Part shown: positions 396 through 33,298 of the stretch, piece by piece
Numbering within the stretch: position 1 is the stretch's first letter
Layout: every line of letters begins with the position of its first letter
DNA from: a virus
IMG/VR virus record: IMGVR_UViG_3300037847_002323
Span: 1 to 33,298 of that record
Reading direction: 5' to 3' (one strand)
DNA: 33,298 bases
The notes under the pieces: model-generated
Databases searched by the model: none
What the model was told of the DNA's origin: nothing
What the model saw: only the letters and a program-made list of their open reading frames with translations
Translations under genes and position numbers: made by a program

Positions 396-396
396 A

Positions 397-976: not shown

Positions 977-1006
977 TTGACAATATTAATTTAGTCGTTC
1001 TAGTAT
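977..1006 (+). promoter_or_regulatory. Sigma70-like promoter for a small RNA
   Basis: A perfect TTGACA (977-982) and TAGTAT (1001-1006) are separated by 18 bases. The promoter begins directly after the T run of the preceding terminator, so it would start a fresh transcript near 1013. No ORF with a ribosome binding site follows before the next terminator. Confidence 0.5.
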
Positions 1007-1012
1007 CTCTAT

Positions 1013-1082: not shown

Positions 1083-1097
1083 AAGTTATTACGATTA

Positions 1098-1199
1098 CTA
1101 CAATGAAATTAATACAACTTCTATTATAATAGCAAGCATCGTTATGATCAATATACCAAAAATAATTATTCCGTCATCATTATTTTTTATAAATTTCAT
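1098..1199 (-). CDS. 33-residue single-span membrane peptide
   Basis: The ORF starts with an ATG sharing ATGA with the stop of the giant virion gene, which implies translational coupling. It encodes a short charged head (MKFIKNNDDG) followed by about 23 almost uninterrupted hydrophobic residues (IIIFGILIITMLAIIIEVVLISL) with one glutamate near the C-terminal end. It is one transmembrane helix with essentially nothing else. It is the last gene of the late operon before the bidirectional terminator at 952-976. I do not recognise it. A small lysis-related or membrane-modifying peptide is possible. Its shortness lowers confidence, but start coupling and strong hydrophobicity support it. Confidence 0.5.
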   Translation of the reverse strand: MKFIKNNDDGIIIFGILIITMLAIIIEVVLISL

Positions 1200-4100
1200 T
1201 CTGATGTAATTTCCCTCCAAGTTTTGTTAATAGAGTAAGCAGCACCTTCTAATCCACGTAATCTAACAGCCCATTTATCAGCTTCTTCAAATCGTTTCTT
1301 ACGTAATGCATTTTCTAATTTACCATATAGTTCAGCTCTTGCCATTGCTAATCCAGCTCGTTGTACTTTATCTGGATCAAAACCATTTTTAGCAGCCGCT
1401 GCAACTATATCACTACCTATACGTTCTACGTTTGCTCTATGATTATATAACTTATCAAAGTTCTTTATATAACCTACATATAATTCACCTAATTGTTTAG
1501 AAGCATACCAACCATGTTTACCTTTTTTCATTTTAGCAAATGTAACAGGTATGTTAGGTAATGGTGTAGAGTTTTTATTTATAATATCTTGTACACTAAA
1601 TGGTGCAAACATTTTTAAAAAGTGTCCTACACGACCTTTTAAGAAACTACCTTGTGCTTCTAATACACCATAATAAGATGATTCATCTTTAAACGCTAAA
1701 TCCCAACCACCCATGCTACGACCAGAAATTTGTTCTATAGCTTGTTTTACAGGTATAGATAATTTATATCCACCTGTTCTTATAGGATTAGTAGCCCAAT
1801 CTTTAATTTCCCAACCTTGTTTACCCCATCTTAAATAAACTCTACGTTGTTCATTTGGACCACCATATTGTTTACTGTCATAGAATGGCATTAATCTATA
1901 TAATGGTGTGACATCAATATAACTAGCTCTACCATGTTCATTTAAATATGAGAATGGTTCATCATCATTCTCACCAAATGGTCTAGTAAGTGCATATATA
2001 GCAAATTGCAATGCGTTAGGTATACCAAACATAACTAATGGTACAAATCCCATCCAATAGTTTCTACGCATTTCTTTTTGCATATCACTATTAGATCCAA
2101 AGATATAATCTAAACCAGGAATTTGACCTGCACCTGCCATACCTAATGCACTATATGTCCAGTCAAATGCAAATGATACATTATTAGCAGTTTGTAAAGC
2201 TATAGGCGTAGCCCATAAATGTCTTTGGAAGTTTATACCACCATATAACTGATCAACATATTCACCTATTTCTGTAATAGCTTTTTGTTCATCAAAAGGC
2301 ATATTACGATCCATAGCTATTTGTTTATACTTATGTAAGAAACCTTCAGCTGTCCATATCTTTAATGGTGCATGTAATTGTACCCATAATTTAGTATCCC
2401 AATTCATTTTCATTTCTAAAAATCTATCTAATGATTTAGCCATACCACCAAACCTACGTTTGTTTGCCCATTCTATACTAGCTTGTATGTTTTCATTAAC
2501 TAAACCTTGTCTATAATCTGGATCCTGTAATGTAGCTTGCATACCTGTTTTATACCATTTAGCAGCTATATAAGGATCTTGAGATAAATTTTTTCTAAAT
2601 GCGTTAAATTCTTTCCATCTACCTGCTGGATTCCATACATCAGATTGCTTGACACCAAAGGCAACCATTCTAGATTCTACTAATGCAAGATGATGGAACC
2701 AAGATAAATACGGAATACCAATAGCAGCAAATTTAGTCCAGGCTAGTACACTTTCATATGCATTTAATAACTTACCTTCAGCACGTTTGTTAATAATCAT
2801 TTTAATAACATTATTAACATCTCCTCTTTGTACATATACTTTAGGCATACTAGGTATACCTGTATCATATTCTATGTAATCTTCTAGAGATTCAGCTACT
2901 CTGGTTATAAATGCTATATCACTTTCACCTCTATTACGTGAGATACCATTACCATTTTCTAATTGTTTTGCATATGCAGCAATAAACTGTCCACTTACTA
3001 TACCTTTTTTCTCAAATAATTCTATACTATTAAATAAAGGTACAACTGGCTGTGTTCCATCTGGTAATTGTGACATTAACATTGCTTGCCATACTGATGA
3101 CATATATCTATCTTTAGATGTTTCACGTGCATATCTTTCATATGCAGCAGCAGGATTAGAAAACAATGGTGTGTATCCTTGTTCTAACATATCTTCTAAT
3201 GTATTAATATCACTTGTACGACCTAGTGATCTAACAGTACCGCCATGATTAACATCTTCATTATTTAATTCACGTAATTCTTTTTTATACTGATCTTGTT
3301 TATAAAACAAAGGCATATAGTTTTTACGAAATGGTATTTCAGTAAGATATGCACTACGCTGTTTATTAAATTTATTACGTAATTGCTCAAATGAATTACG
3401 TATAGCTTCTTCTATTACTTCTGGTTTCTCCATCCAATCAGATTTTTGTAACATATAATCTTTATAGATTTGTGTTGCAGATTTTTTAGAATAAGTAGCA
3501 GTAGTCATTGGTATTAATTCTTTACCAGTTTTTTCTTTATATTCATTCAATCTGCCAAGAATAATTAAACTTAAACTATCTCCTATAGTTGTAATCTTTT
3601 TAATATTAGCAGTATCTCTTACGCTTTCTAATACTTTAATAGCTTCTTGTCTTCTACTTGAACTAAATTCTGGTTCATTCCAACGATTGCCTAATCGTTT
3701 TTTAAGTCTATTAATTTCTATTTCTAGAGCTTTCTCTAGACTTACTTCTATATCTTGTATACTTTGTACAACTTTTTCAGTACCTGTAATTTTAGCATGT
3801 ATAGCAGCTAATACTAAATTACCATGATACATGTTATCTTCTGTAATAGGTCTTGCACCTTTACCTAATTCTTTTCTAGCACCTACAGATTTTTCCCAAA
3901 CTTCTTGCATTAGTTTTGCAAGATCAGCATCTGTACGTGAGTCATTAAGTAATGTAATAAATTGTTTATGCATACCTCTAGCACCACCAAACATTAATGG
4001 TGATAAGTATGTAATAGCTTTACTATACTCATATAAAGCATAGCTTTCACTACCTACATCATTATTACTTCTTATTGTAACATTGTTAGGATTACCTATT

Positions 4101-7100
4101 TCTTTTAATGTAGTTTTTTGTTCTTTTATTATTTCTGATAAATATTCAAAGAACTCTTCACGATCAAATTCTTTTCCAAAAAATTCTGATGGTATATTAT
4201 TAATCCAATCAGTATTACCTTCTAATAAACTTTTATGTAATATATGTGAGTTTTCAAAATTAGTCTTTTCTGCCTGGAACCAAACGCTAGTTTTCTTACG
4301 TAAAGTTTGTTTTTCAGCATATCTTTCTACAATAATATCATTTAATACATCTACAAAACTATCATCAATAGAGTTATCATTAAATGATTCTATTTCTTTA
4401 CTGACATCTTGTGATAGTTTTCTACGTGCTGTTCTACTAATTAATGGTAAGAAACCACCAGCATATGTAACATCTGATAAACCATATACCATTACTTGAT
4501 GTCTGACTAATGCATCTTGTAATTCTTGTGGTAATTGACTAAATGCTTCTTGTGCATAGTTAATTAAGCTTTCTGGTACTGAAGCGTTTTGTAATGCACT
4601 TAATATTTGTATACGAGAAATGTCACCTTTGCTGTCACTAGTTTCTTCCAACATTTGTAAAAATAAATTACCAGGATTGCTTGCTTCAAACTGTTGTATT
4701 AATGAAATTAGATAACCCATTTCTTGTATATAATTAGGTTTATCTGTTTGTGTAACAGCTCTATTAGATAAAGCTCTTAATATAGTATCTTCCATATGAT
4801 CTATATAATAATCTCTAACAGTAGTTGTATTAACTCTATGTTTAGTTGCTACTTTGTCTAATAACTTTTTACCATTATCAGATAGCATAATATTTTGTTT
4901 ATATGCTTTATCTTTCATCTGGATTAAAGTAACTGCAACAGGTCGCATTACAGGATGCCATGTAGTTTTATTTATTTTAGATCCAGATGTATCAAATATT
5001 TTAAAACTATTATCTTCTAATGATTTTAATGCATTATCTTTTTGCATAATTTCACTAATAGATTTTGGCACTTCATGTTGTGTATCTAATAACTGACTAA
5101 TAGTTCCAATTTCTTGTATTACTTCGTCTAGTTTTAAAACTTTTTCTACTTGAGTTGTAGGTGCATCTTTAGATTTTAACTCACGTATCATTAGATTACG
5201 TATAGTATTAATTCTAGTATCTTTACCTTTATCAAATTCTAATGATTCTATAGTTCTTCTAGCATTTACATATGCTTGTACTGTATTTGTTTCTAAAAAT
5301 TCAACTATTTTTTGTACACGTTCTTTAATGTTTTTAGAGTTAATATCTGTTTGTAAAAATAATAAAGCTTGTAACATAGAAGTAGTAATTTCATTTAAAG
5401 AAAGTTTTTCCATTTGCTGATTACTAATATTATCTACAGTTAAGTTAATAATTGTAGTAGCATAATAATATTTTCTTTGTAATAGTTTTATATTTTCTTC
5501 AATTGATCCATCACTTGGTTCATATCTTACTGGTACACCACCATAAAAAGAAAAGTTATTACTTATTCCACTATTAGATTTTAATCTAAATTTTAAATGC
5601 TGTGCTACGTCATAGAATTTAATATAAGAAGCTGTTCTTCCTAATGCATCTAAAGCTGTTGAGTTTGCTTTATTTGAATAAGCTTCACCTTGATAAGAGT
5701 TGCTGTATATTTCTTTTTCTATACGCTCTTCATTATTCATTTTAGGTCTGATTTCATCTAATTGTTTCATGAAATCTTGAGCTTGTTGTTGTATTACAGG
5801 TAAGTAACTAGGATTAGTATACGTATCTGCCATTAATAATATTTGTAAATTTCTATTACGTGTTATAATATTAGTTTCATTTTTATCTAACAGATATTGA
5901 TAACCTATATCACCATCAAAATCTTCATCTTTAGCTAATACAACATCCATTGGTGTTATACTAAAGTTACCATTTAATTCTTTATTAACATGTTTCCATA
6001 ATCTATGTGGTATATGTGATTGTAAGTTTTCACCTGGAATACGTGATTCAATAATAATCTCTCCAGGTACAACTACTGCATTATCACCAAATTCATCTAT
6101 ATCATATTCTTCTTTTAATTCAGCTACAGTATATATTTCATATTCTCTAACAATTGCTTTAGTACCATTTTGTCCATTTTGTAATACGCCATTACTATCT
6201 ACTTCAAACATATCCATAAATTCTAAATAATTTTTTTTGATATGTTCTATAGCTGCTCTTTTACTTTTAAAACCTCTAGCTGTTCTAGCACCTTCTGTAT
6301 TTGATATAATCCAGGGCAGTCTAGTTTTACCATTAACTACTTTAAAGCTAGGTATTTTTAAATCGTAAGCAGATATTTTCTGCATCATAACTCTAGGTAA
6401 TTGTCTACGCATAGCACGCATTAAAAATCTAGCTTTAATTTGTTGTACAACTTTATAGATCTGTGGATCTATTTCTGTAACTTGATTATTTAATGCTTTA
6501 AATACAGAAGAGAAATAATCAGCATCAGTTTCTTTATGCCATGAATGACTAGATATTACATCACGTAATACTTCTATCATTTCTAAAGCTAACTGTTGTT
6601 CAGTACCTTCATAGTCATTATTGTTACGTAATTGTTTAACAATGTCTTCAATTACTTTAGCAGCTGGTTCACTTATTTGTGTAGTATCACCACGTTCTTT
6701 TATAATTTCATCTAATACTTCTGATGCCTTTACACTTTCTTGATATGTTTGGTTGTTAAACATACCAGTAAGAATATCAATATTTTCATTAACTAATTTA
6801 TATATTTGTTCTTGATGTAATCCATGTAACGTATCAGTTATTTGTTGTTTAGATTGATTTCTAATACTTGGTGTATTGCTGTAATCTAAATTTTGTACAG
6901 CTATAAATTGATCTCCTGTAATGCTTTCTATTACAGGATTTTCATAAGTAGATAATTCTTTTAATTTTTTATCACCACGTACCCATCCGCTTTTAGCCAT
7001 ACTTAATGGTATAACTAAATCTATTTGTGGATTTTGTTCTAAAAATTCTGCAATCTTTTTATATTCTGGACTTACATCTTTTGATAAAGAACTGTTAATT

Positions 7101-10100
7101 ATATTACCTTTTAATAATATTCTATTACTATTTTTATCTACAAATGATACTACAGGTTTAACACTAGTTGCTTCTTCTGCACCTAACATATAATCAGCAC
7201 CATAGTATTGTGCAAATTCTTTAGCAAAAGAACTACTCATAAATGCTTGTCCATCAAGTAATTTACTATCGTCTATTACAATATACTTTATTTCTTTTTT
7301 AGATTTAAACGATAATCCTGGTGTTGGTACTTGTGATGTACGTTTGTTCATATCAAAGTAATCTTTATATGACTCAAAATTACCATGCATTTGCTGATCT
7401 ATTTTACCTTTGTTTAAAATATAATTTAATTCAAATAAAAATCTGCTGATCTCTGGTTTGTTCTGAATATTTTTATTATCATAACCTTTTGATAATTGTT
7501 GTAATTTTCTAGCAACACTAGGTGGAACTAAAAATTGTTTACCATGATCACTTAATGAATTATAATATTCTTCATATTCTTTTATTGCTTCGTTTATAGT
7601 TTCTCTAGTTTTTAATAATGGCATTTCAAATATATAAATTTGATTCTTCTGACCCATTTGTCCAGAAGACTGCCAATATACATCTCTATTTCTTTCTAAC
7701 GCATCTATAAACATAGAACGTAATGTTTCTATACGTTCTTGCTCTGTAAACTTTTTAGCACCTTTCTTCTTATTATCTAGACCTCTACCAGATAATTGAC
7801 CCATTTTTGTATTTAATGCATTTCTAACATCTATTAATTGACTAGTAGATCTTAATGCTAATTCTTGTTCACCATCAGAGTTTCTATATTTAATAGCTAT
7901 ATCTAATTGACCTTGATTAAATTGTAATATGAATTGTGCTAATGTATTTTCATAATCAATACCATTAGTTTCTTTAAAGAAATATGATGTTAATGCTAAT
8001 GCAGCATCTGCTCTGTTATCACGTTTTTCTGCTATATTAATAGCCTTTTCAAAATCTATATAAAATTTACTTAATAGTTTAGGATTAAATCTATTAAATA
8101 TAGCTCCTGGTATAGCAGTTAATGTAGAGAAAAAGCTTACCATATCTTCATGATTAATATGTCCACTTTCTGATATAAAAGCGTTATGTCTTTTTCTTAA
8201 ATCTTGTATAGACGATTGTCTTAAAAACAATGCCATTTGTTCTCTAATTTGTTTATGTAATCTTTGCTCGTTAAAGGCACCATTTTTTAAATTAAGTTCT
8301 TTATATGTTCTACCATTACGTGTTCTTTCATTGTATTCATATACAGGTATTTTTTCTAAATTTTCATATCTATTAAATATTTTAACAAATGATTCGTGTA
8401 ATCTTTCTGCAGCAAGTAATGGATCTACATTTTTATTATTAGCTAATACATTATTTAAAGCTTTATGTAATACACGCAGATCTGCTATTTCATTTGTTTC
8501 TTCTAGGAATTTAATAAATGAAAACTGTCTGTCACGTAATGTTTTAAGAAACTCTCTAGTTGTTGGATTTTCTTTAAGTATATCATATAAGTGCATTAAA
8601 CCAGGAGAAGACTGTGTTAATAATTTATTAATCTCTTTTAAGATAGCTGTGTTATCTATATAGCTTACTAATCTTTCTGCATGTAAATATTCTATATAAT
8701 CAATTTGTGCTTCTAGCATACTGTCTTCAGTAGAACTTTCTTCTAATCTAAATGACACATCACTATTATTTAATATATCAAATGCTGCAGTAATAAATGG
8801 TGCAACATCTTCTGGATTATCTCTTTTAGCTGCATTTAAGGCTTTGTTTAATTGAAATAATACAGCTTGTGCTTCTACAGCTTCTGGTCCTTTTAAAGCT
8901 TGTACTCTAGCTTCTGCTTCAGATATTATTTCTTCTACAGCTTCTGGAGCTACAGGTTGATCTTTTGGTATATTAGCTAATTTTTCTTTAGTAGTAAGTT
9001 TAGGCTCTTCTGGAACTTCTTCTTTTGTTTCTTCTTGTTCTGGTGTTTCACTAGCAATTTCAGCTTTTTTAACAGATGGTTTCTTTTCTTTAACAGAAGG
9101 TGATTGATTCATCATTAAATCAATTGTTTTCTTACCTAGTAATCTAGTAAATTCATCTAATACAATGTCTTGTATTTTTTGTGGTACAACTACTTTACTA
9201 TATTGTTCTGAACCAGCACCTGCATATTGATTCATTATTGCAGCTTGAAATACTTTTGATAATACTTCTATTTCAGACCATCCCTCTTGATCTCCCTCTT
9301 TTCTAACATTAATACCTTGTTCTTTAGCAGCACGTAATAATGGCGCTTTTAACATTTGATATGTTTTATTGCTACCTTCTTGTACATCCAATGATTTAAA
9401 TACACCCTCTATTACTTCTTCAAAGACAGCTGATAGATCTGATGATGGTGCTATTTCTACAATAATTTTATTTGGATTACTTTGATCAATATAATTTCTA
9501 CCTGCAATAAATAATCTTTTTGTAGACTCTGGTGACCCTTCTAAATTATATCCAAATTGTTCATTAAACTCTCTAACTGTTCCAACTACTTCATAGTTTG
9601 GTAACATTTTAACTTCTATCTCTATTGGTACATTAGATTTATTTGTATGTTTATCTAAAGTTTCTAAAGCTTCAAATACTTGTTTAGCTTCTGCTGGTGT
9701 ACTCATGTTTAATAACTGCATTATTTCGCCAATAGATGCTGTATTTTTACTGTTTAATACATGAGTAATACTTGTACCCTCTATAGCACCAGACGCTTGT
9801 AATTTGCTATATGTAGTAGGAGATATAATTAATGTTGTTCTGTCTTGTTTTAAAGCTTCAATAACTTTTCCAACTTGTTGACCCATTTGATTTTCTTCAT
9901 AACGAGCTACAGTTTTATTTATATCTACTACATAAAAACCTCTACCATTACTATCTCTTACAAAGTTAGCTTCACCTTTCTTTATAAGATCTTGTACACG
10001 TTTACGTTGTATTTCTGTATTAGTTTCTATAACACCTTGTGCTTTAACTACTTCAGTAAAGTGTGTTTTTATATCTGCTTTAATTTCTTGTGTACTTTTA

Positions 10101-11857
10101 CCTTCTGCTCGCATAGCTTCTATACGTGCAGTAGTACTATCTATATTTAACATTGTAAGTGCTTCAGATATAGAACCTCTTTGTTCATATTTATCAAAAA
10201 GTCCAAAGTTATTTATCTTTGCACCTTTTAAAATTTTAGTTAGCAATGATGGATTATCAGCTTGTTCTATTGCTAGATCTACATATTCATCTATATAATC
10301 TGATAACTCTTTTGTTTCTTCATTTTCTAATAGTACAGCATCTGGATTATTAGCACGTAGTTTAATTAAGTCTTGTGCTTTTTGTGCTTGTTCATAACCT
10401 GCACCACCTAAAAATTTAGTTTGTGCTGCGTTTGTTGCAGCACTCATACCTGCACCAAATATTGTAAACGATACTGCTTCTAATGCTAATTGTTCTGGTG
10501 TAGGTAAAAAGTTTGGTTGTAAACCTACAGATGCTCTTAATACATCTCCTACACGTTCTTCATACATTTCTGCAATAGTTCCATCAAAACCAGTTTTAAA
10601 GAGCAACTCTTTTACTTTATCTCTACCTAATTGTTTTTCTAGATATGGTGTAATTGCAGCTTTTAAACCTGTATTAACATAAATTTTTTCTATTGCTTCT
10701 TGTCCTGCTTTTGTAAGACCGCTTCTTTTAGCAGCTTTTGTTAATCCTTTTCTAATTTTATTAGCAAAAACATCACCTTTCATTAAGTAATGCATAGTAT
10801 ATAAAGATGCACCAACTGATTCAGAGAAAAATTCTATACCTTGTGTAGCATATGCTTTAGCTAATGCTGGTAAAAAATCATCACCATCATCAACTAAACG
10901 TAATAATATTTCTTCATCTATATCGCCTTGTTCTGTTATAAATACAGGTGACATTCTTTCTAATGCATCTTTAACAGCATTAGGAGTTCTAAATAAATTT
11001 AATGCTGTAAAAGTTTCTGCTACACCACCGCCTAGTGATTTAGAAGTTTTCTTTAATGTATTTCCTACACCTTCTTTTTTTATTACATCTTTTAATAAAC
11101 CAGCTTTTGCTAATTGTGCAGTTTTTATTATATCTCTACTAAATTGTCTTTTAGCTACACGATCTGCTAAATCTAATGCAGCTACACTTATCTTTGATTT
11201 TGTTCCAGCTTCTTTAGCAGCTTTCTTTAAAACTTCTTTTTCAACTGGACTTAATCCACGATTTTTTAATGCAGTATTTATAGACTTTAATACTGCTTTT
11301 TTTGTACCAAATTTAGTTGCTTGTCCTGCAACAGTTTTACCAACTAATGGTGCACCTACTCCAAAAGTTGCTCCTGCTACAAATATACTACCAAGAGTTT
11401 CTAAAAAGAATGCAGTTGATTCACGTAATGTATCTACAATTTTATAACCAAATGTAGTAGGTCTAGATGCATCTAAAGAAAATTCTTTTACTTTTAATAT
11501 ATCTTCTTCTGAAGCTGTGCCATCTTTTACACGATTAGCTCTACCTAACATACGAGCAGTTTCAACTAATTCAGCATCACGAACAAATGGTATATACTTA
11601 TATCCATCTTTACTAAAAGATTCAGCCATTGCGGTAAAGAATGTTTTTTTATTCGGTGCGTCTTCTTTATCTTCTAGATCTAAATCTGGTGGTTCTGCAG
11701 TAGGAGTATTTGTAGGTTTAATACGATCTTTATATTCTGGATTGTGTGCTAAATAATCTTCAAATATTTCATCATCGGTTAAATTCATATAGGCAGGTAT
11801 ATTTAGCTTCTTAACCTCTTCTATAAACTCTTCACGTGTGTCATATATACGACCCAT
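1196..11857 (-). CDS. Giant internal virion protein, putative virion RNA polymerase with double-psi beta-barrels
   Basis: This 3553-residue protein is the last large gene of the ejection block, preceded by AGAGG before the ATG. The N-terminal ~500 residues are basic and helical with hydrophobic stretches (about 145-170 and 460-480). A degenerate zincin-like segment lies near 790-870. RIPGENLQS (1939-1947) precedes DFDGD (1979-1983) by 40 residues, close to the R-A-P-T to NADFDGD spacing of RNA polymerase beta-prime, whose three aspartates hold the catalytic Mg. A candidate first barrel holds DDSKLLDG (1529-1536), K1567, K1583 and S1619/K1622. The C-terminal ~700 residues, with a YGGINF...FDWTYS segment and a membrane-like helix (3266-3290), resemble giant ejection proteins. 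N4 and crAss-like phages inject comparable polymerases. The polymerase assignment is inference from motifs. Confidence 0.7.
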   Translation of the reverse strand: MGRIYDTREEFIEEVKKLNIPAYMNLTDDEIFEDYLAHNPEYKDRIKPTNTPTAEPPDLDLEDKEDAPNKKTFFTAMAESFSKDGYKYIPFVRDAELVETARMLGRANRVKDGTASEEDILKVKEFSLDASRPTTFGYKIVDTLRESTAFFLETLGSIFVAGATFGVGAPLVGKTVAGQATKFGTKKAVLKSINTALKNRGLSPVEKEVLKKAAKEAGTKSKISVAALDLADRVAKRQFSRDIIKTAQLAKAGLLKDVIKKEGVGNTLKKTSKSLGGGVAETFTALNLFRTPNAVKDALERMSPVFITEQGDIDEEILLRLVDDGDDFLPALAKAYATQGIEFFSESVGASLYTMHYLMKGDVFANKIRKGLTKAAKRSGLTKAGQEAIEKIYVNTGLKAAITPYLEKQLGRDKVKELLFKTGFDGTIAEMYEERVGDVLRASVGLQPNFLPTPEQLALEAVSFTIFGAGMSAATNAAQTKFLGGAGYEQAQKAQDLIKLRANNPDAVLLENEETKELSDYIDEYVDLAIEQADNPSLLTKILKGAKINNFGLFDKYEQRGSISEALTMLNIDSTTARIEAMRAEGKSTQEIKADIKTHFTEVVKAQGVIETNTEIQRKRVQDLIKKGEANFVRDSNGRGFYVVDINKTVARYEENQMGQQVGKVIEALKQDRTTLIISPTTYSKLQASGAIEGTSITHVLNSKNTASIGEIMQLLNMSTPAEAKQVFEALETLDKHTNKSNVPIEIEVKMLPNYEVVGTVREFNEQFGYNLEGSPESTKRLFIAGRNYIDQSNPNKIIVEIAPSSDLSAVFEEVIEGVFKSLDVQEGSNKTYQMLKAPLLRAAKEQGINVRKEGDQEGWSEIEVLSKVFQAAIMNQYAGAGSEQYSKVVVPQKIQDIVLDEFTRLLGKKTIDLMMNQSPSVKEKKPSVKKAEIASETPEQEETKEEVPEEPKLTTKEKLANIPKDQPVAPEAVEEIISEAEARVQALKGPEAVEAQAVLFQLNKALNAAKRDNPEDVAPFITAAFDILNNSDVSFRLEESSTEDSMLEAQIDYIEYLHAERLVSYIDNTAILKEINKLLTQSSPGLMHLYDILKENPTTREFLKTLRDRQFSFIKFLEETNEIADLRVLHKALNNVLANNKNVDPLLAAERLHESFVKIFNRYENLEKIPVYEYNERTRNGRTYKELNLKNGAFNEQRLHKQIREQMALFLRQSSIQDLRKRHNAFISESGHINHEDMVSFFSTLTAIPGAIFNRFNPKLLSKFYIDFEKAINIAEKRDNRADAALALTSYFFKETNGIDYENTLAQFILQFNQGQLDIAIKYRNSDGEQELALRSTSQLIDVRNALNTKMGQLSGRGLDNKKKGAKKFTEQERIETLRSMFIDALERNRDVYWQSSGQMGQKNQIYIFEMPLLKTRETINEAIKEYEEYYNSLSDHGKQFLVPPSVARKLQQLSKGYDNKNIQNKPEISRFLFELNYILNKGKIDQQMHGNFESYKDYFDMNKRTSQVPTPGLSFKSKKEIKYIVIDDSKLLDGQAFMSSSFAKEFAQYYGADYMLGAEEATSVKPVVSFVDKNSNRILLKGNIINSSLSKDVSPEYKKIAEFLEQNPQIDLVIPLSMAKSGWVRGDKKLKELSTYENPVIESITGDQFIAVQNLDYSNTPSIRNQSKQQITDTLHGLHQEQIYKLVNENIDILTGMFNNQTYQESVKASEVLDEIIKERGDTTQISEPAAKVIEDIVKQLRNNNDYEGTEQQLALEMIEVLRDVISSHSWHKETDADYFSSVFKALNNQVTEIDPQIYKVVQQIKARFLMRAMRRQLPRVMMQKISAYDLKIPSFKVVNGKTRLPWIISNTEGARTARGFKSKRAAIEHIKKNYLEFMDMFEVDSNGVLQNGQNGTKAIVREYEIYTVAELKEEYDIDEFGDNAVVVPGEIIIESRIPGENLQSHIPHRLWKHVNKELNGNFSITPMDVVLAKDEDFDGDIGYQYLLDKNETNIITRNRNLQILLMADTYTNPSYLPVIQQQAQDFMKQLDEIRPKMNNEERIEKEIYSNSYQGEAYSNKANSTALDALGRTASYIKFYDVAQHLKFRLKSNSGISNNFSFYGGVPVRYEPSDGSIEENIKLLQRKYYYATTIINLTVDNISNQQMEKLSLNEITTSMLQALLFLQTDINSKNIKERVQKIVEFLETNTVQAYVNARRTIESLEFDKGKDTRINTIRNLMIRELKSKDAPTTQVEKVLKLDEVIQEIGTISQLLDTQHEVPKSISEIMQKDNALKSLEDNSFKIFDTSGSKINKTTWHPVMRPVAVTLIQMKDKAYKQNIMLSDNGKKLLDKVATKHRVNTTTVRDYYIDHMEDTILRALSNRAVTQTDKPNYIQEMGYLISLIQQFEASNPGNLFLQMLEETSDSKGDISRIQILSALQNASVPESLINYAQEAFSQLPQELQDALVRHQVMVYGLSDVTYAGGFLPLISRTARRKLSQDVSKEIESFNDNSIDDSFVDVLNDIIVERYAEKQTLRKKTSVWFQAEKTNFENSHILHKSLLEGNTDWINNIPSEFFGKEFDREEFFEYLSEIIKEQKTTLKEIGNPNNVTIRSNNDVGSESYALYEYSKAITYLSPLMFGGARGMHKQFITLLNDSRTDADLAKLMQEVWEKSVGARKELGKGARPITEDNMYHGNLVLAAIHAKITGTEKVVQSIQDIEVSLEKALEIEINRLKKRLGNRWNEPEFSSSRRQEAIKVLESVRDTANIKKITTIGDSLSLIILGRLNEYKEKTGKELIPMTTATYSKKSATQIYKDYMLQKSDWMEKPEVIEEAIRNSFEQLRNKFNKQRSAYLTEIPFRKNYMPLFYKQDQYKKELRELNNEDVNHGGTVRSLGRTSDINTLEDMLEQGYTPLFSNPAAAYERYARETSKDRYMSSVWQAMLMSQLPDGTQPVVPLFNSIELFEKKGIVSGQFIAAYAKQLENGNGISRNRGESDIAFITRVAESLEDYIEYDTGIPSMPKVYVQRGDVNNVIKMIINKRAEGKLLNAYESVLAWTKFAAIGIPYLSWFHHLALVESRMVAFGVKQSDVWNPAGRWKEFNAFRKNLSQDPYIAAKWYKTGMQATLQDPDYRQGLVNENIQASIEWANKRRFGGMAKSLDRFLEMKMNWDTKLWVQLHAPLKIWTAEGFLHKYKQIAMDRNMPFDEQKAITEIGEYVDQLYGGINFQRHLWATPIALQTANNVSFAFDWTYSALGMAGAGQIPGLDYIFGSNSDMQKEMRRNYWMGFVPLVMFGIPNALQFAIYALTRPFGENDDEPFSYLNEHGRASYIDVTPLYRLMPFYDSKQYGGPNEQRRVYLRWGKQGWEIKDWATNPIRTGGYKLSIPVKQAIEQISGRSMGGWDLAFKDESSYYGVLEAQGSFLKGRVGHFLKMFAPFSVQDIINKNSTPLPNIPVTFAKMKKGKHGWYASKQLGELYVGYIKNFDKLYNHRANVERIGSDIVAAAAKNGFDPDKVQRAGLAMARAELYGKLENALRKKRFEEADKWAVRLRGLEGAAYSINKTWREITSE

Positions 11858-11888: not shown

Positions 11889-14036
11889 TTATGGTATTTT
11901 TTGCATAGGAGTGCCTTCTACAGCTCCTGGTTGTGGCGTACCAAATACTCCACCAAATGGTGAACCCTGACTTTTCAAGTTTTCAATTTGATTGCTTAAA
12001 AGATCATTCATATATTGATATGAATTATATTTACTTTGTGCAACTTGATGGTCAAATTCACCCCATGCTACAAAATTATTTAATATAGCATTAAAAGATT
12101 TCATATGTTCATAAGCTTTATTGCTATTAGTAACATAACCATATGCAGAATTATAAGATTTTTGGTAACGGTTTTCTAATGCTTCAGCTGCATTTTTAAC
12201 ACTTCCCCATTCTTTAGAAAATTTATCTGATTGAAATTTATAACCATCAGATTCTAATATTCCAGCATTAAATAAAATTCCTTTATTACCATATCCACCA
12301 TGATTTAAAGTATACATTAATTTTTCTGCATCTCTAATTTCTAATTGTGTTTGTAGTGGTAATGCGGTAAATTCATCACTATTCATAATATTTTTTAAAT
12401 AATCATGTCTAGCTTGTATATCACCTCTTGCACTTGATACCCATTGAGCATCATTTGCTCCTTGTGCAAACAAATAATCTCGACCTTCTGGTATATCTTT
12501 TGTACCATAATTTCCAAATATCCACCAATTACTTTTATATTGTAAACCTGCTGGACTTGTATCTCTACCAAATATATATCTAGTATTACCAAACATATGT
12601 CCACCATAAGCAGATAAATCTGATTTTTTAGGCATTACTCCATTAGCTCCTACTTCTGCAAATTCTGCTGGAGTTAATTTTCGAAATACTAAATTTCCAT
12701 CTTTATCTGGCATATAACCAAATCCAGAATTAGCTGCATATAATGGATTATTTTGCTGAATTGTAGCTTGTAATTTATTCATTTCTCCAGCTAAATAAGT
12801 TTTACTGTTATTAGCTACTTGTATTAATAATGCTGATTTAAATGCAGCATATTTTTCTGTTTGACCTTCTACGCTTCCAAATTTTTTTTCAAAATAAGGT
12901 TTTATTAAACTATCAATTTGTGCCATTGCAGCATTAGCCATTTCAGTATTTGGTCCAAATTCAGCAGTTCTTCTAAAAAATTCATCTACACTTAATAATT
13001 CTTCTGTAAATGTTCCATCTTTTTGTGGAATTTTTAATTTATATTGTTGTCGGAAAAAATTTTCTATAGCAGTAGTGGCATTAGTTTGAAATGCTTGTAA
13101 ATCTAAAGTAGTAGCATCTTGCACATCTTGTGCAATTTTCATATCCTGCATTGATTGTTTTGATGCTATTTGAGATTTAGCATAAATATCAGCTCGTTGT
13201 GGATCATTGTATGTTTCCATACCTGTAGTATAATGTTTATTATATTCACGATTATAATTAGCTTCAGCTATCATTGCATTTTTATTAGCAAATTGTTGTG
13301 ATTGTTCTAATTTAAATGGATCATTACCAGCCCAAGCAGCTAATCCACCATCTATATGCGAATTTAAATCATCACCTGTTAATCCTTTATCTGTTCCTTC
13401 TTTTGTTAATTTAGCTAATTCTTCATTATAATCGCCACCCATTGATTGCTGTAAATTATTTCTTATTTGTATATATCTATTATAAGCTTTACCTGCGTCT
13501 GAGTTTGGATCAGCACTTGCATATTGACTCATTGTTCGTGATATTTCATCACTTAAAATATAATTATAATCATTAGGATTATTTGCCATTCTGTTAACTA
13601 TTGCTCCTATATTATTTTGCATATAGGATAAATCATGTTCAAAAGATCGTTGTTGTTTTTGATATTCAACTTTATTTGCTAAAGTTTGTGCAAAAATTTC
13701 ACCAGAAGCAAATTGTGCTTTTGTTTTTTGATTATCTAAAAAAGCTCTTTCATTATCATATTTTAATTTTTCAATATCATAAGGCATTGTTAATAATGAT
13801 TCATGATTTGCAATAGCAGTTTGTTTTAATGTTTCTTCTGCCTGTGCAATTTTAGATGGCAACATAGCCATTTGTGATCTCATATCTTGTCTATTAGCTT
13901 GTATTATTTGTAATGATTTACGAGCTTCTAAACCTGCTGTAATACCTTTTTGTAGACTTCCTTGCACATCTCCTTGCACAAAATCTCTTGGTCTGAAATT
14001 TGGATTATTTATTTTTGATTGATATTGTTTAGCCAT
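11889..14036 (-). CDS. Internal virion / ejection protein, coiled-coil rich
   Basis: This 715-residue soluble protein is dominated by long helices rich in Q, N, A and K (residues ~20-150 and 240-330). A mixed region (~440-530) holds many aromatic residues, including YKSNWWIFGNYG. The tail is Gly/Pro rich. There is no signal peptide or clear enzyme motif. Its place between a small helical ejection-like protein and the giant protein, plus its length and composition, matches T7 gp15-like core proteins that build the DNA translocation conduit. I do not recognise the sequence family, so the role is inferred from position. AGGA precedes the ATG, and the gap to the next gene is 31 bases. Confidence 0.6.
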   Translation of the reverse strand: MAKQYQSKINNPNFRPRDFVQGDVQGSLQKGITAGLEARKSLQIIQANRQDMRSQMAMLPSKIAQAEETLKQTAIANHESLLTMPYDIEKLKYDNERAFLDNQKTKAQFASGEIFAQTLANKVEYQKQQRSFEHDLSYMQNNIGAIVNRMANNPNDYNYILSDEISRTMSQYASADPNSDAGKAYNRYIQIRNNLQQSMGGDYNEELAKLTKEGTDKGLTGDDLNSHIDGGLAAWAGNDPFKLEQSQQFANKNAMIAEANYNREYNKHYTTGMETYNDPQRADIYAKSQIASKQSMQDMKIAQDVQDATTLDLQAFQTNATTAIENFFRQQYKLKIPQKDGTFTEELLSVDEFFRRTAEFGPNTEMANAAMAQIDSLIKPYFEKKFGSVEGQTEKYAAFKSALLIQVANNSKTYLAGEMNKLQATIQQNNPLYAANSGFGYMPDKDGNLVFRKLTPAEFAEVGANGVMPKKSDLSAYGGHMFGNTRYIFGRDTSPAGLQYKSNWWIFGNYGTKDIPEGRDYLFAQGANDAQWVSSARGDIQARHDYLKNIMNSDEFTALPLQTQLEIRDAEKLMYTLNHGGYGNKGILFNAGILESDGYKFQSDKFSKEWGSVKNAAEALENRYQKSYNSAYGYVTNSNKAYEHMKSFNAILNNFVAWGEFDHQVAQSKYNSYQYMNDLLSNQIENLKSQGSPFGGVFGTPQPGAVEGTPMQKIP

Positions 14037-25271: not shown

Positions 25272-26960
25272 TTAACTAATTGCGAAGTCACTATTTTGTG
25301 CTAGGACAGTTGCCCAATCAGCAGCAGTAGACTCAGCAGTACCATTAGCGTCTGTTACAGGAATAAATCTGTAACGACCATTACCATAATCCCTAGAGAT
25401 TAATAGATTTTGAGTATCACTAGTATTGTATGTTGCTTCAACTACATCACCAATTTGTTTTGTGTTAAATGCTGCAGATAACGTAATTTCAACAGCTGTA
25501 TATGCTGTATCTGTATCCGTTGATCCTTCACCATTATCAACAACTGCACTGAATGCTTCTGCAGTCATTCCTGTGTCAGAAGATGCTGCATTATCAGAAC
25601 CAGTACCTTGTGCTGGTTGCACAATTGGCACTACTTGATGTCGTCTATGCAATAATACTAATGCATTATCTACTTGATCTAAAGGTTCTGGAGCACAATT
25701 AAATCGTGCAAACATGAATCCTGTTTCCCCAAGCAAGTTGGTTTCACGATCTTCAATGTTGATCCATTTATAAGTACCTAAGTTAGAAGCACCACCAAAT
25801 GTAGCACCAGCTACAGCTGTTGGGTTTTCTGGAACTAGACCACGATATACATCTTTAAGGAATATGATAGATAACTCAAATGGAGCATATACATAATCTT
25901 TATTGATGTTAGTTGCATTACCGATAGATGTTGGTGTGAACTCATAAGGATATACACGTTCTAATTTCCCACCTACAGTTGGCTTGTAACGTGGAGTTTC
26001 CAAGTCATGCGAGTGTGCGAAGTTTTTATATCCTGTAATTGTTCCATAACCTTCTAGTAAGAAACTAGGTCTTGCATAACGCATATCTTGATTTCTTACA
26101 GTATCTTTACTAATCAATTCAGTTGAAGTTTCAAATGAAGTAACTAGTGCAAATACAGGCATTCCATTTTCACCATCAGCTACTTTACCTGGTCTTGCTT
26201 GTCTTGCTAGGTACTGATAATGATAATCTAGAACATCTTGTGAAAGTACGCCAATTGAATCCATAGGTGTACCACCTAAGTCAATTTCACGTAATCCAGC
26301 TTGGTTAACAACAGTTCCAGAAGCACCATTTGTAATGGTGAATGATGGGAATCCTTCAGCTACTAATTGCTTTGTAGCAAAAGTAACATAAGTTTCTCTT
26401 AACCATTTTTCCCAAGCACCCAATGTAATATCAGCAAGTGAATTAAAGATCATCTCTAATTGTTGCTCGAATTGCCATTGGAATACAATATCACGTAAAC
26501 AAATATCTCGTGTTCTACGAGTTGTTTCATAGATAGTGTATTGCTTTTCTTCGAATCCATAATCAGTTACGACTGGATTGTATTGTCCTAAGTTACCGAC
26601 ATCTTCTGCAGGTGACGCAGCATCACCACTACTAATATCATGTAGTAATGCATCATTGTCGCCTCCAGATGATTTATTATCACGTTTCTGTAGGTCTGTT
26701 AAATTATACCAATCACCTGCAGAGTTCGTTGTTTCTTTACCACCATAGAAACTATGTTTCTTCATGATGAATCCACGACCATACTCGAAATTACCGAGTC
26801 CAATCATGTCACGCCATATAGACATTGTTTCTTTGGATTTATTAGATATAGCTTGGTGAACGAACTGTTCTGCTCGAATGAACGCATTGTTCAAATGATC
26901 AACAGATTGTGCGCTACCGCTGCCATACCCAGTTGTTACTTGATCGCCTGGTTTAGCCAT
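25272..26960 (-). CDS. Major capsid protein
   Basis: This 562-residue protein forms the capsid shell. Evidence is its position between a scaffold-like gene and tail genes, its length, and its content: a helical N-arm (HLNNAFIRAEQFVHQAIS), a long helix (FQWQFEQQLEMIFNSLADITLGAWEKWLRETYV) and mixed domains typical of HK97-fold capsid proteins in N4-like and related podoviruses. A linker GTGSDNAASSDTG near 444-457 leads to about 100 extra C-terminal residues with strand-rich character. The gene is visibly less AT-rich than its neighbours and has its own promoter, structured leader and terminator, all consistent with very high expression. GGAG lies 8 bases before the ATG. The specific fold is inferred. 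Confidence 0.85.
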   Translation of the reverse strand: MAKPGDQVTTGYGSGSAQSVDHLNNAFIRAEQFVHQAISNKSKETMSIWRDMIGLGNFEYGRGFIMKKHSFYGGKETTNSAGDWYNLTDLQKRDNKSSGGDNDALLHDISSGDAASPAEDVGNLGQYNPVVTDYGFEEKQYTIYETTRRTRDICLRDIVFQWQFEQQLEMIFNSLADITLGAWEKWLRETYVTFATKQLVAEGFPSFTITNGASGTVVNQAGLREIDLGGTPMDSIGVLSQDVLDYHYQYLARQARPGKVADGENGMPVFALVTSFETSTELISKDTVRNQDMRYARPSFLLEGYGTITGYKNFAHSHDLETPRYKPTVGGKLERVYPYEFTPTSIGNATNINKDYVYAPFELSIIFLKDVYRGLVPENPTAVAGATFGGASNLGTYKWINIEDRETNLLGETGFMFARFNCAPEPLDQVDNALVLLHRRHQVVPIVQPAQGTGSDNAASSDTGMTAEAFSAVVDNGEGSTDTDTAYTAVEITLSAAFNTKQIGDVVEATYNTSDTQNLLISRDYGNGRYRFIPVTDANGTAESTAADWATVLAQNSDFAIS

Positions 26961-28319: not shown

Positions 28320-28622
28320 TTATTCAAATGTTTCTTCTAATTCTTCTGCTACTGTTTCAACAAGTTGATCAAGTTGCATCATTTCTGATGTAGCATGACT
28401 TCTTCCTAAAACATATCCTAATACTGCACATGCAGAATCTTCACCTGTTCCTGGTACATTAACTAATTTACCAGCAGCTTTATCTGGTGTTGATAGTGCA
28501 TATAATATACTACCTACTAATTTAGTCATACGGTTATTTTTCCATTTTACATAACTTTGATGTAAATGACTACCATCGGTATTAATTTCATTAATTAACT
28601 GATCAATTTCAGTTATATTCAT
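28320..28622 (-). CDS. Small helical protein between portal and scaffold genes
   Basis: This 100-residue protein has an acidic helix at each end (ITEIDQLINEINTDG and QLDQLVETVAEELEETFE) and a central hydrophobic part (MTKLVGSILYALSTPD..AGKLVNVPG). There is no signal peptide or metal motif. Its start overlaps the portal stop (TAATG) and it ends 10 bases before the scaffold gene, so it belongs to the head assembly block. N4-like and related phages often have small head genes here, but I do not recognise this one. Confidence 0.65.
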   Translation of the reverse strand: MNITEIDQLINEINTDGSHLHQSYVKWKNNRMTKLVGSILYALSTPDKAAGKLVNVPGTGEDSACAVLGYVLGRSHATSEMMQLDQLVETVAEELEETFE

Positions 28623-30820
28623 TATCCCTCCATTTCAGCACTTGCTTTAGCTTGTGCTATTCTTATTTCATTTTCTGCTTTAGCAGCAGCTATTTGCATT
28701 CCATGTTGTGCTTTAGCTACACGTACTTGATGGTTATGTTTTTCTTTCATAACTTTAAACTGTTGTTCAGCTTGTATTTCCATCATATGTTTTTGTAACT
28801 CTGTTGCATCACCACGTTCAGCCATTGCTTTCATTTGTTCTTGTTGTTCTCTTGCTTTTTGCTCTCTTACTTCAGCAAATTTATTAGCAATTTTTTCTAT
28901 TTGTTTAGAAACACGTATCATATTAGCTAATTGCTGTTCATATTTTTTCATTTTACTAGCATGTAGTTTATCTCCTTTAAGGAATTGTACATGTGTGCTT
29001 AAATGTTTCAATATAACAGGTATAGCATCCATTGCATCAAATATATCTTTTTCTTGTGGATCATCTAATAATTGAGCTAGTTTTGTTTGGAAGAATCTAA
29101 AGTGTGTATCTAAATGTGTAGTATGTAAATCATCTATACTAACAATACTTTCAAATCCTTGTAATAAATCATTATTTTCTAGCTGTGCTATTTGATTACT
29201 CTTACTAGGCATAGTATCATCTTCAAATGGTGGATAATATCTATTAACAGAATCTGGTCCACCTCTAGCTTCAATAAAGTCTTCTATTACTGCACGTTTA
29301 CCCATTTCTGGTAAATATGGTGCTATAGATAACATTTCTTGTGTAGTCATATTTTTCATTACTGTAGATCCAGAACCAATTGTTCTAGGTGCTTTAAACT
29401 CCCAAGCACTTAAATCTTTTAATAATTCTTCTGGAACACCACGTTCTATACATCTATTACGAAAACCTTTAGCATCTGCTTCTTTAGAAGTAAATATACG
29501 TCTAGCCATTTCCATATATAACATATCAACTTGTCTGTAATATAAAGCTATATCAGTTTTTTCTAATTCAATTTCTTCAATAGCTTGTATTCCAGCACCT
29601 CTAGCTGTGTATTTTTGTACATCTGATCCTGCTACAGATCCTAATCCTGGTCTTTTAACACCTACACTAGATTGGTTTACTTGTGATAATAAACCATACA
29701 TATTAGTAATACCTTGTAGATTAGTAGATAAATTATTAGTTTCTAATCCTGCTCCAGATGGTAATATAATTTGATTACCTAATCTTAATGTTTTACCTTT
29801 ACGACTTGTACCATCTTTAAATGATACAACCATAGATGCACTATCCATAGCACCATCTACTGCTCTACATAAAAATCTATTGTTAATAACTACAGAAGGA
29901 TATATTCTATGTCCTATACCTTTTAATCCATGAAAATATCCATTACCTATATTACATATAAATGGTATAAATACTTCTTGTATTTTATCATATGCATCTT
30001 CACGTTTATATAAAAATTCACTTTGTTTACCACGTTCAATTATATAATGACTAATTTTACCTGTTTGTTCTCTAACTAATAAATGTGCAATTTTAATTTC
30101 AGATTGTAATACTGTTTGATATGCTAATGCATTATTTTCAATATCTCTTTGTATTTCTTCCCAATCCATTGTATCATATGCATTTTTTTGTAAACTGTCT
30201 TCTATTAGTTCTCTAATAGCACTTCTATTCCATCCCATATCTGAAGCACTTTTATTTTGCATATATTTATATAATGTAGGAATACTAGCAGTATCTAATA
30301 CTACTGCACATTCTATATAATCTACAGATGCTTTAGTATTTTTAGGGAATAATACTTCACCAGTTTTAAATGCTTTCCATTTCCATGATTCTGGATCACT
30401 AAATAATGGAAAACCATCACCATGTAAATTCATAGAATTAGCTAACACCATCATTTCGTATTCAAAACCACACCAAGAGTTAATTAAGTTTTTTAACTCT
30501 TCTGTTACAATACTTTGCCAATGTGTTCCTCTGCCTAGATAAATAGCTAAATCTTTTAATTTACAATCAATAATACTGCGACCATCTAAAAATAATTCAA
30601 AAAATGAAGTATTACGTGCTTGTATAATACCTTCACCTTCACGAAAGTTTACATTACATCTATGACCTTGACCTGTTTTTTTAAGCATTTCTGGGTCAAA
30701 TGGTGCATTACCTGCTACCATACCACTTACTTTAGCTCGTTTATTAGCTCTTGTTATATCATAATGTATTAAATCTTGAACAATACTGTGTGCTTTATCT
30801 GGATCAGTTATTTTTCTCAT
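28622..30820 (-). CDS. Portal protein
   Basis: This 732-residue protein would form the dodecameric ring at the packaging vertex, binding terminase and the head-tail adaptor. Supporting features are the N-terminal ANKRAKVSGMVAGNAPFDPEML and RCNVNFREGEGIIQARNTSFFELF segments, typical of podoviral portals in which early helices hold N-x-N. A long mixed clip/stem region follows. A helical crown with barrel-like coil occupies the last ~110 residues (KMKKYEQQLANMIRVSKQIEK to ENEIRIAQAKASAEMEG). The length fits the 700-760 residues of N4-type portals. It overlaps the upstream gene by 17 bases. Confidence 0.88.
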   Translation of the reverse strand: MRKITDPDKAHSIVQDLIHYDITRANKRAKVSGMVAGNAPFDPEMLKKTGQGHRCNVNFREGEGIIQARNTSFFELFLDGRSIIDCKLKDLAIYLGRGTHWQSIVTEELKNLINSWCGFEYEMMVLANSMNLHGDGFPLFSDPESWKWKAFKTGEVLFPKNTKASVDYIECAVVLDTASIPTLYKYMQNKSASDMGWNRSAIRELIEDSLQKNAYDTMDWEEIQRDIENNALAYQTVLQSEIKIAHLLVREQTGKISHYIIERGKQSEFLYKREDAYDKIQEVFIPFICNIGNGYFHGLKGIGHRIYPSVVINNRFLCRAVDGAMDSASMVVSFKDGTSRKGKTLRLGNQIILPSGAGLETNNLSTNLQGITNMYGLLSQVNQSSVGVKRPGLGSVAGSDVQKYTARGAGIQAIEEIELEKTDIALYYRQVDMLYMEMARRIFTSKEADAKGFRNRCIERGVPEELLKDLSAWEFKAPRTIGSGSTVMKNMTTQEMLSIAPYLPEMGKRAVIEDFIEARGGPDSVNRYYPPFEDDTMPSKSNQIAQLENNDLLQGFESIVSIDDLHTTHLDTHFRFFQTKLAQLLDDPQEKDIFDAMDAIPVILKHLSTHVQFLKGDKLHASKMKKYEQQLANMIRVSKQIEKIANKFAEVREQKAREQQEQMKAMAERGDATELQKHMMEIQAEQQFKVMKEKHNHQVRVAKAQHGMQIAAAKAENEIRIAQAKASAEMEG

Positions 30821-31283: not shown

Positions 31284-31795
31284 TATTTACCTTTCTTTTG
31301 CCAACAATTTGTTGGATGATTGTTATAATTATTATTTTCTATTTTGTCTAGAATAATTTTATCTTGATTAATTAACTGTGATATAAAACATTTTGATATA
31401 GAGCATACATCTCCTAAATCTTCATGTTCTATATTATATTCACAATCTAAACAAATATCATATCTTTCTCTTGCTGTATCTAAATCAACAGCTTTATGTT
31501 TAGTTTTTCTTTTTAGTAGATTAATTTCTGTATCTTTATTTAAAACATCAATATCATCTACATAATATTTATTTGTATGACCTATACAAAAACCAGTTGG
31601 ACATTCTTCGCATATTGCATTTTGTATTAATAATTCTATATTTGTAGGAACTTCTAAATCATTTAAGATATAATTATGTATTACATCTTCTACTAAATCA
31701 TCATATGTTTCTGCTTCTATTATAATAGAAGTTTCTTCTATATAATAAACCCATCCGCATCTAGGCGTTAATGAAGTGTCTTTTAATTTATACAT
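31283..31795 (-). CDS. Hypothetical cysteine-rich, probable zinc-binding protein
   Basis: This 170-residue protein carries two cysteine clusters. One is CEECPTGFC near the middle. The other is C..C (ICLDCEYN), then VCSISKCF and a final NCW, a spacing that suggests a zinc ribbon. The R-x-x-x-C-x-x-C...C-x-x-x-C...C-W pattern recurs in small phage proteins of unknown function. It overlaps the TerL stop by 8 bases and abuts the SAP-like gene (TAATG), placing it in the packaging block. It contains an 18-base perfect palindrome (31714-31731). The role is unknown. Confidence 0.6.
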   Translation of the reverse strand: MYKLKDTSLTPRCGWVYYIEETSIIIEAETYDDLVEDVIHNYILNDLEVPTNIELLIQNAICEECPTGFCIGHTNKYYVDDIDVLNKDTEINLLKRKTKHKAVDLDTARERYDICLDCEYNIEHEDLGDVCSISKCFISQLINQDKIILDKIENNNYNNHPTNCWQKKGK

Positions 31796-33298
31796 TTAAT
31801 TCATTCCAATCACTAAAATCTTCTTCAATACCATCTTGATCAGAAAAACCATCTTCGTTATACTCGGATTCTATTTCGGCTAATTCTTCCCATTCATCTT
31901 CTGCAAAAGAACCAACTCCACCTTTATTACTCATAGGTAATATATTTAAACCTTTTCTAACAACTTCTAATGCAACTACTGCTGCATCAGCTTCATCTGG
32001 AGAATATCCTAATCTTTCTCTCAATATTGTTTTTGATTCAATAGTTACTTTTCTACTATCTGCAGAAGAAAAATCCAATAACCTTGTGCAAAATTGTTTG
32101 CAAGCTTCTTCATCTAAATTACGGATCATATCATTTTGTACATATAATCCAAATCTACCCCATAATTCTGTTACATAATTAGAATACAAATCTCTACCAG
32201 GTCTTTTATCTTGTATTGATATAGGTTCATCACTTGCACTACCAGAAAATTTAACACGATGTATACCAGTATTACCCATTGTTTTTTCTAATGCATCTGC
32301 TAATAACCATTGGTTACCTGTACAATCCATACCTACATTATCAATAGTACATCCTATTGCATTTAAATGATGTTTTATATTCTCACATAATGTATCAATC
32401 ATTAATTGATCTTTTTTAGCTACTAGATTAATACCAATAGGTTCTTGAAATTCTATTGCATATTCACCTGTATTACTCATACCTACTTTAGCAGGATATA
32501 AAATACATTTATCACCACCAGCAGAATAAGCTGGATCAATACCAGCAACCATTGTAGGCTGACTAGACCATATAGCTGTATCTCTTACATGATATTGTTG
32601 TATAGTTTTTTCATTTAAAATAGACCATATAATACCATCTGGTGGCATAAATCCTCTACGCATAGTCCAAAAACGTGGACTATCCTCTCCTGGATCTATA
32701 CGCATTTCATCTATTTGTTTTTTTGTTAATAAAAAAGGATATTTATCTGGATCATCTACTCCTGGACTTTTTAATCCATCAAAATATAACGTATGTCCTT
32801 TAGGTGTTTTCCATTCTTCTAATTCACTAGATAGTTTTTCCCATCCGCCTACAGGTATAGATTTAGCACCTAATGGATCCATTTTAGACATAGGGTTACC
32901 CATACCTAAAAATCCACCTTCTATTAATCCAGAAGATAAGTTATCCCAAGCTGTTACTGCTGCTTCACGAGTAGCTTGCATTTCGTCAACTATTAAATAT
33001 ACATGTTCATTATGCATACCTATTAAGTTACCTAATGCATCTGCTTGTGTACCCATTTGTACTGCTACACCATGTATACCAGACAATGGATTTTCTGGAT
33101 CAAATAAAATACTAGTTGTAGATCTTCTTATAACACCAGGAAATTCATGTTCACGCATTTTATAAAACTTTACTACTTCTCTCCATATACGTTTTTCTAA
33201 CATTTTACTAGTAGTAGAACATACTATAACAGTTGTATTGTGTGGTGATGCAAGCCAAGCACATAATGCTAATACTCCTGCATCTGTAGATTTACCAG
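31788..33298 (-). CDS. terL: Terminase large subunit (5' end outside window)
   Basis: This is the DNA-packaging motor ATPase and headful/end nuclease. The frame is open to the window edge. Its first visible codons read GKST (33296-33285), the end of Walker A, followed by ALCAWLASPHNTTVIVCST, so the ATG at 33203 is internal. VYLIVDEMQ is Walker B with the catalytic glutamate, and GMGNP is the coupling motif. The nuclease domain shows GIDPAYSAGGDK, DCTGNQWLLADAL and DEADAAVVAL, which carry the conserved acidic residues of the RNase H-like fold. The C-terminus is acidic (EDEWEELAEIESEYNEDG). The arrangement fits TerL proteins of podoviruses; the missing part is mainly the N-terminus. Confidence 0.96.
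   Translation of the reverse strand, partial: GKSTDAGVLALCAWLASPHNTTVIVCSTTSKMLEKRIWREVVKFYKMREHEFPGVIRRSTTSILFDPENPLSGIHGVAVQMGTQADALGNLIGMHNEHVYLIVDEMQATREAAVTAWDNLSSGLIEGGFLGMGNPMSKMDPLGAKSIPVGGWEKLSSELEEWKTPKGHTLYFDGLKSPGVDDPDKYPFLLTKKQIDEMRIDPGEDSPRFWTMRRGFMPPDGIIWSILNEKTIQQYHVRDTAIWSSQPTMVAGIDPAYSAGGDKCILYPAKVGMSNTGEYAIEFQEPIGINLVAKKDQLMIDTLCENIKHHLNAIGCTIDNVGMDCTGNQWLLADALEKTMGNTGIHRVKFSGSASDEPISIQDKRPGRDLYSNYVTELWGRFGLYVQNDMIRNLDEEACKQFCTRLLDFSSADSRKVTIESKTILRERLGYSPDEADAAVVALEVVRKGLNILPMSNKGGVGSFAEDEWEELAEIESEYNEDGFSDQDGIEEDFSDWNELNV

Follow-up and report, generated by a model that had tools for sequence, protein, structure and literature searches.

The stretch of viral DNA examined here (the window) comprises 33,298 nucleotides, positions 1 to 33,298 of the IMG/VR record IMGVR_UViG_3300037847_002323, and carries on its minus strand a giant open reading frame (ORF) at 1196..11857, whose nucleotide coordinates were re-checked and which encodes a protein of 3553 amino acids (aa). 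At the level of sequence profiles, a core within this protein (aa 1474-2206) is homologous to gp66, the virion RNA polymerase (RNAP) of the crAss-like phage phi14:2, and the catalytic residues are conserved. We consider it very probable that the giant protein is a gp66-type single-chain, two-barrel RNAP, which the phage, podovirus-like and not a member of the Crassvirales, packages and injects.

The homology was detected by comparing two profiles with hhalign, one built from four sequences (the window protein and its relatives G006, G002 and L017, see below) and the other from phi14:2 gp66 and 12 diverse homologues, the homologues of the gp66 family coming from Crassvirales and from Flavobacterium phage Fpv1. 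With gp66 taken up to aa 1720, one collinear alignment of 612 columns was obtained, joining window aa 1474-2206 to gp66 aa 862-1667 (E = 4.8e-10, probability 96.6%, 18% identity), and its score of 93.1 compares with 27.1 for the best of 100 column-shuffled controls. When gp66 aa 761-1520 were used the score was 54.3, whereas none of 199 column shuffles exceeded 24.3 and the reversed profile reached 21.7; the top alignment (E = 1.9e-5) fell on the proposed beta-like part (window aa 1475-1626), and a further one, in order, covered RIP...DFDGD (E = 0.005). Since the match spans both proposed barrels, in order, the sequences give good support to the claim of a preliminary description of this DNA that the enzyme is a single-chain polymerase of the multisubunit type and does not have the T7/N4 fold. 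The same description had placed the polymerase at 5800-7300, which is the right location, although the homologous core is somewhat larger (5240..7438, minus strand, as are all features below).

All sequence strings quoted in the preliminary description are found at the residues given for them (DDSKLLDG, for example, begins at residue 1529, and S1619 is present), and most of them can now be paired with gp66. Closest to the N-terminus of the core, the motif HGNFESYK...KR (aa 1491-1506; 7340..7387) is common to crAss RNAPs as GDxxxYK...KR, and its G1492, Y1497, K1498 and R1506 pair with gp66 G880, Y885, K886 and R894. In the beta-like barrel region (aa 1529-1626; 6980..7273), D1535-x-Q1537, K1583 and K1622-x-G1624 pair with gp66 D962-x-Q964, K1027 and K1065-x-G1067; K1567 (7157..7159) pairs with K1005, while K1583 (7109..7111) and K1622 (6992..6994) correspond to positions that are Lys in all compared crAss sequences. 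The block at 1529-1622 had been put forward as a candidate beta-like barrel, and its three lysines do have counterparts in gp66. Further along, RIPGENLQS (aa 1939-1947; 6017..6043) pairs with gp66 RIPNQGQSS (R1939 with R1322, S1947 with S1330), and DFDGD (aa 1979-1983; 5909..5923), with the proposed Mg-binding catalytic aspartates D1979, D1981 and D1983, pairs with gp66 D1361, D1363 and D1365, in agreement with the original proposal that these two strings mirror the R-x-P...DFDGD arrangement of the RNAP beta-prime subunit. DFDGD occurs once in the 3553-aa protein, where 0.0013 occurrences are predicted from composition. The spacing agrees as well: 39 residues from lysine to lysine in the window protein vs 38 in gp66, and 40 vs 39 from the arginine to the first aspartate.

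Two later segments extend the correspondence. The element STALDALGRTAS (aa 2066-2077; 5627..5662) is aligned with crAss GxxxIGxxAN and is possibly a bridge-helix element, and TVDNISNQQMEKLSLN (aa 2140-2155; 5393..5440) is aligned with gp66 VDNAKDP...N, its VDN at 2141-2143 pairing with VDN1611-1613, in line with the earlier attribution of this segment to the same family of giant phage proteins. In a separate MAFFT alignment, RIP, DFDxD and the GIGxxAN-like element again fall in register.

Relatives of the giant protein were found by an indirect route. No relative was obtained in direct IMG/VR scans with the window protein alone as query, scans of genome contigs found nothing, and when 50,697 phage records were searched by tblastn with the core, all matches were of the chance kind. 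The terminase encoded at the right end of the window led to eight IMG/VR contigs, two of which encode homologous giant genes (G006 and G002, with 47% and 38% identity to the window protein in the core), and a profile scan, confirmed by reciprocal search, yielded a fourth, distant protein (L017, about 31%). A scan with the N-terminal region found no further relatives, and the DNA pattern KxEDFDGD was present in six contigs, namely those of the three known relatives and three with unrelated ORFs.

In both closer homologues R1939-I-P, Q1946-S-H, DFDGDIG, K1567, K1583 and K1622 are invariant, as are G1492/N1493, Y1497/K1498, D1535 and Q1537; the L017 contig starts past the beta-like part, and its protein retains RIP...SH...DFDGD.G. 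R1939, P1941, S1947, H1948 and the three aspartates are invariant in all four proteins, and the three lysines in all three that reach that far. When the protein is divided into 100-aa bins, aa 1901-2000, with 40 of 100 positions invariant, rank with the best conserved. Since L017 shares the C-terminal region of the window protein (aa 2874-3521, 1295..3238; 650 aa at 28% identity by blastp, E = 2e-55), the giant proteins are related outside the core too, and this conserved region is a candidate virion or ejection module. An N-terminal region (aa 70-500; 10358..11650) is likewise conserved, with 45-50% identity in two relatives. In a phylogenetic tree the four giant proteins form a single clade (100/99 support) that is well separated from the crAss sequences, the branching order within the crAss side being unsure because the branches of Fpv1 and ProJPt are very long.

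Some features of these relatives may be recorded on their own account. The L017 protein (2-8476 of its contig) is of the polyvalent type: an LPD23 domain (E = 7.6e-14), two zincin-like motifs (HEYQH and HEIQH) and a stretch also present in jumbo phages, e.g. Phabio and PhiPA3, lie between its RNAP core and its C-terminal region. In the G002 contig (L012:5531-6610) the sequence of the 3208-aa homologue is interrupted close to the C-terminus by unknown bases (XXXX), and the remainder is found as a separate 314-aa ORF; this break is probably an assembly gap, and the true protein would therefore be longer.

Several observations weigh against a gp66-type polymerase. AlphaFold models made from the four sequences have a mean predicted local distance difference test score (pLDDT) of 48.7 (model 1) and 50.8 (model 2, which is shorter), so that the two barrels and the clustering of aspartates and lysines are not readable from them. 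In Foldseek the shorter model 2 matched nothing significantly (best E = 0.23, the top rows being sigma factors). The profile alignment is poor in the linker that joins the two barrels, and no more than 18% of its residue pairs are identical. Finally, the giant protein has no sequence match in Pfam, PHROGs or PDB. As phi14:2 gp66, an experimentally established RNAP, itself has no match in Pfam or PHROGs, missing family matches are not evidence against a polymerase. A match to the 60S protein eL20 (E = 0.012) was judged to be due to chance.

Structure prediction nevertheless gave a divided answer, with pLDDT low in both models. The single PDB match of model 1 below 0.001 among 350,542 chains was 6vr4, the structure of gp66 (2.9e-4), the next being at 0.68. 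In the viral library BFVD model 1 had five matches below 0.001 (best E = 1.8e-6), and its best matches were mostly crAss-like RNAP proteins. Among the five are giant proteins of ProJPt-Bp1, cr111_1 and cr118_1, which tblastn assigns to the gp66 family; phi14:2 itself appeared at 3e-3. These predicted models lend weak support to a gp66-type core, whose double-psi barrel fold we infer from the sequence homology. An uncharacterised protein of Virus NIOZ-UU157 (A0A7S9STY9) was also among the top BFVD structural matches of model 1 (E = 4e-4), and the modelled similarity makes it a candidate for a further RNAP.

Even a genuine gp66-type polymerase need not be a virion enzyme, as it could be made during infection for the transcription of later genes. 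Single-chain two-barrel RNAPs can be non-virion proteins, gp64 of phage P23-45 being an example (PMC10770324), and the DFDGDIGY stretch of the window protein is similar to DYDGDIGY of gp64. We nevertheless think this unlikely, as the giant gene closes a late structural operon with the strand unchanged, its 3553-aa product has large conserved N- and C-terminal regions where gp64 is compact (616 aa), and the full-length match is to the virion-packaged gp66 and not to gp64. One may also consider that the region derives from a gp66-like enzyme, has degenerated and lost its catalytic activity, and was retained as a structural or ejection protein, a scenario with which the low overall identity in the alignment would agree and for which giant ejection proteins could, in principle, offer room by holding dead domains. 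Yet the three aspartates, the arginine and the lysines are invariant in every homologue covering them, L017 included, and aa 1901-2000 belong to the best conserved bins, which makes loss of catalysis quite improbable.

Two-barrel enzymes further include QDE-1 and archaeal PolD (PMC10770324), and template and substrate cannot be fixed by sequence alone, so one could think of an RNA-dependent RNA polymerase or a PolD-like DNA polymerase. According to PMC7886860, which cites Drobysheva et al., however, gp66-type phage virion RNAPs, which are the closest homologues, transcribe early phage genes. We regard a polymerase of such another kind as very improbable here. The virion RNAP (vRNAP) of phage N4 has a T7-like single-subunit fold, and if the window protein were of that type its DFDGD match would be coincidental. 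It is true that N4 gp50 (Schitoviridae), which a short-tailed phage injects for early transcription, is similar in size (about 3500 aa) and genome place (PMC5512222, PMC12633501), but the whole 3553-aa protein had no match at E <= 0.1 to PDB sequences, the N4 vRNAP included, and the significant full-core homology to gp66 contradicts an N4-type enzyme, which we find scarcely credible.

The setting of the gene agrees with a role in the virion. From the terminase through the giant ORF all genes are contiguous on the minus strand. The terminase gene comes first, followed by those for the presumed portal (732 aa), a scaffold-like (394 aa) and a capsid-like (562 aa) protein, several tail proteins (the product of one has 2180 aa) and a protein of 715 aa; the giant gene is last and ends the head/tail operon as phi14:2 gp66 ends its structural cluster. 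The ATG of the giant ORF is preceded by AGAGG, which resembles a ribosome-binding site, and genes for RusA and a single-stranded DNA-binding protein (SSB) are convergent to it. Directly upstream lies the gene for the 715-aa protein (11889..14036), by its position a possible internal virion protein. The presumed major capsid protein (25272..26960) follows the scaffold-like ORF and is 64-74% identical in relatives, the presumed portal protein (28622..30820), so named for its position, is 71-74% identical, and the terminase large subunit (TerL; 31788..33296), whose N-terminus is cut by the window end, shows the motifs GKST, VDE and GIDPAYSAGGD. When the DNA upstream of the terminase was searched for repeats that might be vRNAP promoters, no family of them was convincing.

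In phi14:2, TerL, portal and head proteins match phrog_6681, phrog_6547 and phrog_11589. TerL, portal and capsid of the window match none of these at E <= 0.1, and hhalign found no convincing match between them and the phi14:2 proteins; the phage is therefore not evidently crAss-like, and membership in the Crassvirales was rejected. The sole window protein with a strong PHROG match is a 141-aa protein with hydrophobic stretches (24535-24960; phrog_38283, of unknown function, E = 2.4e-42), which is possibly holin-like. In the G002 genome a calcineurin-like phosphoesterase, recognised by sequence motif, is encoded directly upstream of the terminase (L003:4015-5010), and the phi14:2 structural cluster likewise holds a metallophosphatase gene, g075. 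A small secreted-looking ORF at L003:2300-2851 ends in IPEPLAISLIATSGLTLLIIKRK, which is similar to a PEP-CTERM sorting signal and may possibly hint at the host group.

If the giant protein is a gp66-type enzyme, aa ~1474-2206 would form a single-chain DNA-dependent RNAP with two double-psi barrels, the beta-like one contributing K1583 and K1622, perhaps also K1567, and the beta-prime-like one R1939 and the metal-binding D1979, D1981 and D1983. By analogy with two-barrel RNAPs, we take the three aspartates to bind the catalytic metals, while R1939 and the lysines of the barrel would contact the nucleoside triphosphate and the RNA. The later conserved segments would correspond to the part of gp66 past the catalytic aspartates, probably the bridge-helix and trigger region. 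The protein, presumably a virion component to judge from gene position and homology, would be made late and packaged with the aid of its large N- and C-terminal regions, would leave the particle together with the DNA or before it, and would then refold and transcribe the first phage genes. Fold, activity, packaging and timing are proposed here because of the analogies with gp66 and P23-45 gp96, as described in PMC7886860 and PMC10770324.

Injected single-chain two-barrel RNAPs are already established in phi14:2 gp66 and P23-45 gp96, and the giant protein is therefore a divergent addition and not a new strategy. The novelty appears to lie in a distinct and highly divergent branch, found in a phage lineage that seems unrelated, with the polymerase placed between conserved N- and C-terminal regions; no description of this branch was found in the literature searched, which covers the field in part. 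Whether an undescribed podovirus-like lineage acquired, or anciently kept, a gp66-type RNAP between two large ejection regions within one chain of some 3,500 residues, making early transcription part of genome entry, we consider an evenly balanced question. If it did, injected two-barrel RNAPs would be a general phage strategy and not mainly a trait of Crassvirales. Our observations suggest that starting infection with an injected polymerase also occurs in a lineage seemingly unrelated to crAss-like phages, and they would extend the virion-type, cellular-like single-chain RNAPs to phages with no detectable crAss-like relation in their head genes. Four sequences with conserved catalytic residues also help to define a minimal motif set of two-barrel RNAPs, and because Pfam and PHROGs recognise neither the giant protein nor gp66, such enzymes may hide in giant "hypothetical" or "structural" proteins.

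Among known systems, YonO of SP-beta is not known to be a virion protein. It resembles the window protein in being a single-chain two-barrel RNAP, with DNDGD (PMC5467207), and a comparison of single sequences detected no profile match to it. Gp96 and gp64 of P23-45 share RxP followed 38 residues on by D[FY]DGD. Like the window protein, gp96 is a giant protein, of the virion, in which a single-chain two-barrel RNAP is embedded; it is part of the tape measure of a long-tailed phage and has no clamp, while gp64 is the non-virion RNAP (PMC10770324). Both differ from the window protein in having neither GNxxSYK...KR nor D[AG]Q; a single-sequence comparison aligned 14 columns to gp64 and 19, off-motif, to gp96, and nothing outside the DFDGD stretch could be aligned across the core, a weak test because no family profile was built. 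With these other motifs missing, the P23-45 proteins and YonO were set aside as the closest family in favour of gp66.

What links the window protein to the phi14:2 gp66 family (6vr4) is a core with its elements in the same order, namely GN/GDxxxYK...KR, D[AG]Q, two lysines at a distance of 38-39 residues, RxP...S, DFDxD 39-40 residues past the arginine, a GIGxxA-like element and VDN...N, all in a single chain whose gene stands at the end of a structural cluster. The annotation of gp66 comes from tandem mass spectrometry of virions, and the cargo of the crAss001 virion includes three proteins associated with RNA polymerase (PMC10172136). Fpv1, whose record is not classed in the Crassvirales, encodes a 4401-aa "structural protein" homologous to gp66 (34368-47573), and this sequence similarity is a second hint that gp66-type RNAPs may reach outside that order. 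From the gp66 family the window protein differs in having DFDGD in place of DFD[IV]D and in its own N- and C-terminal regions.

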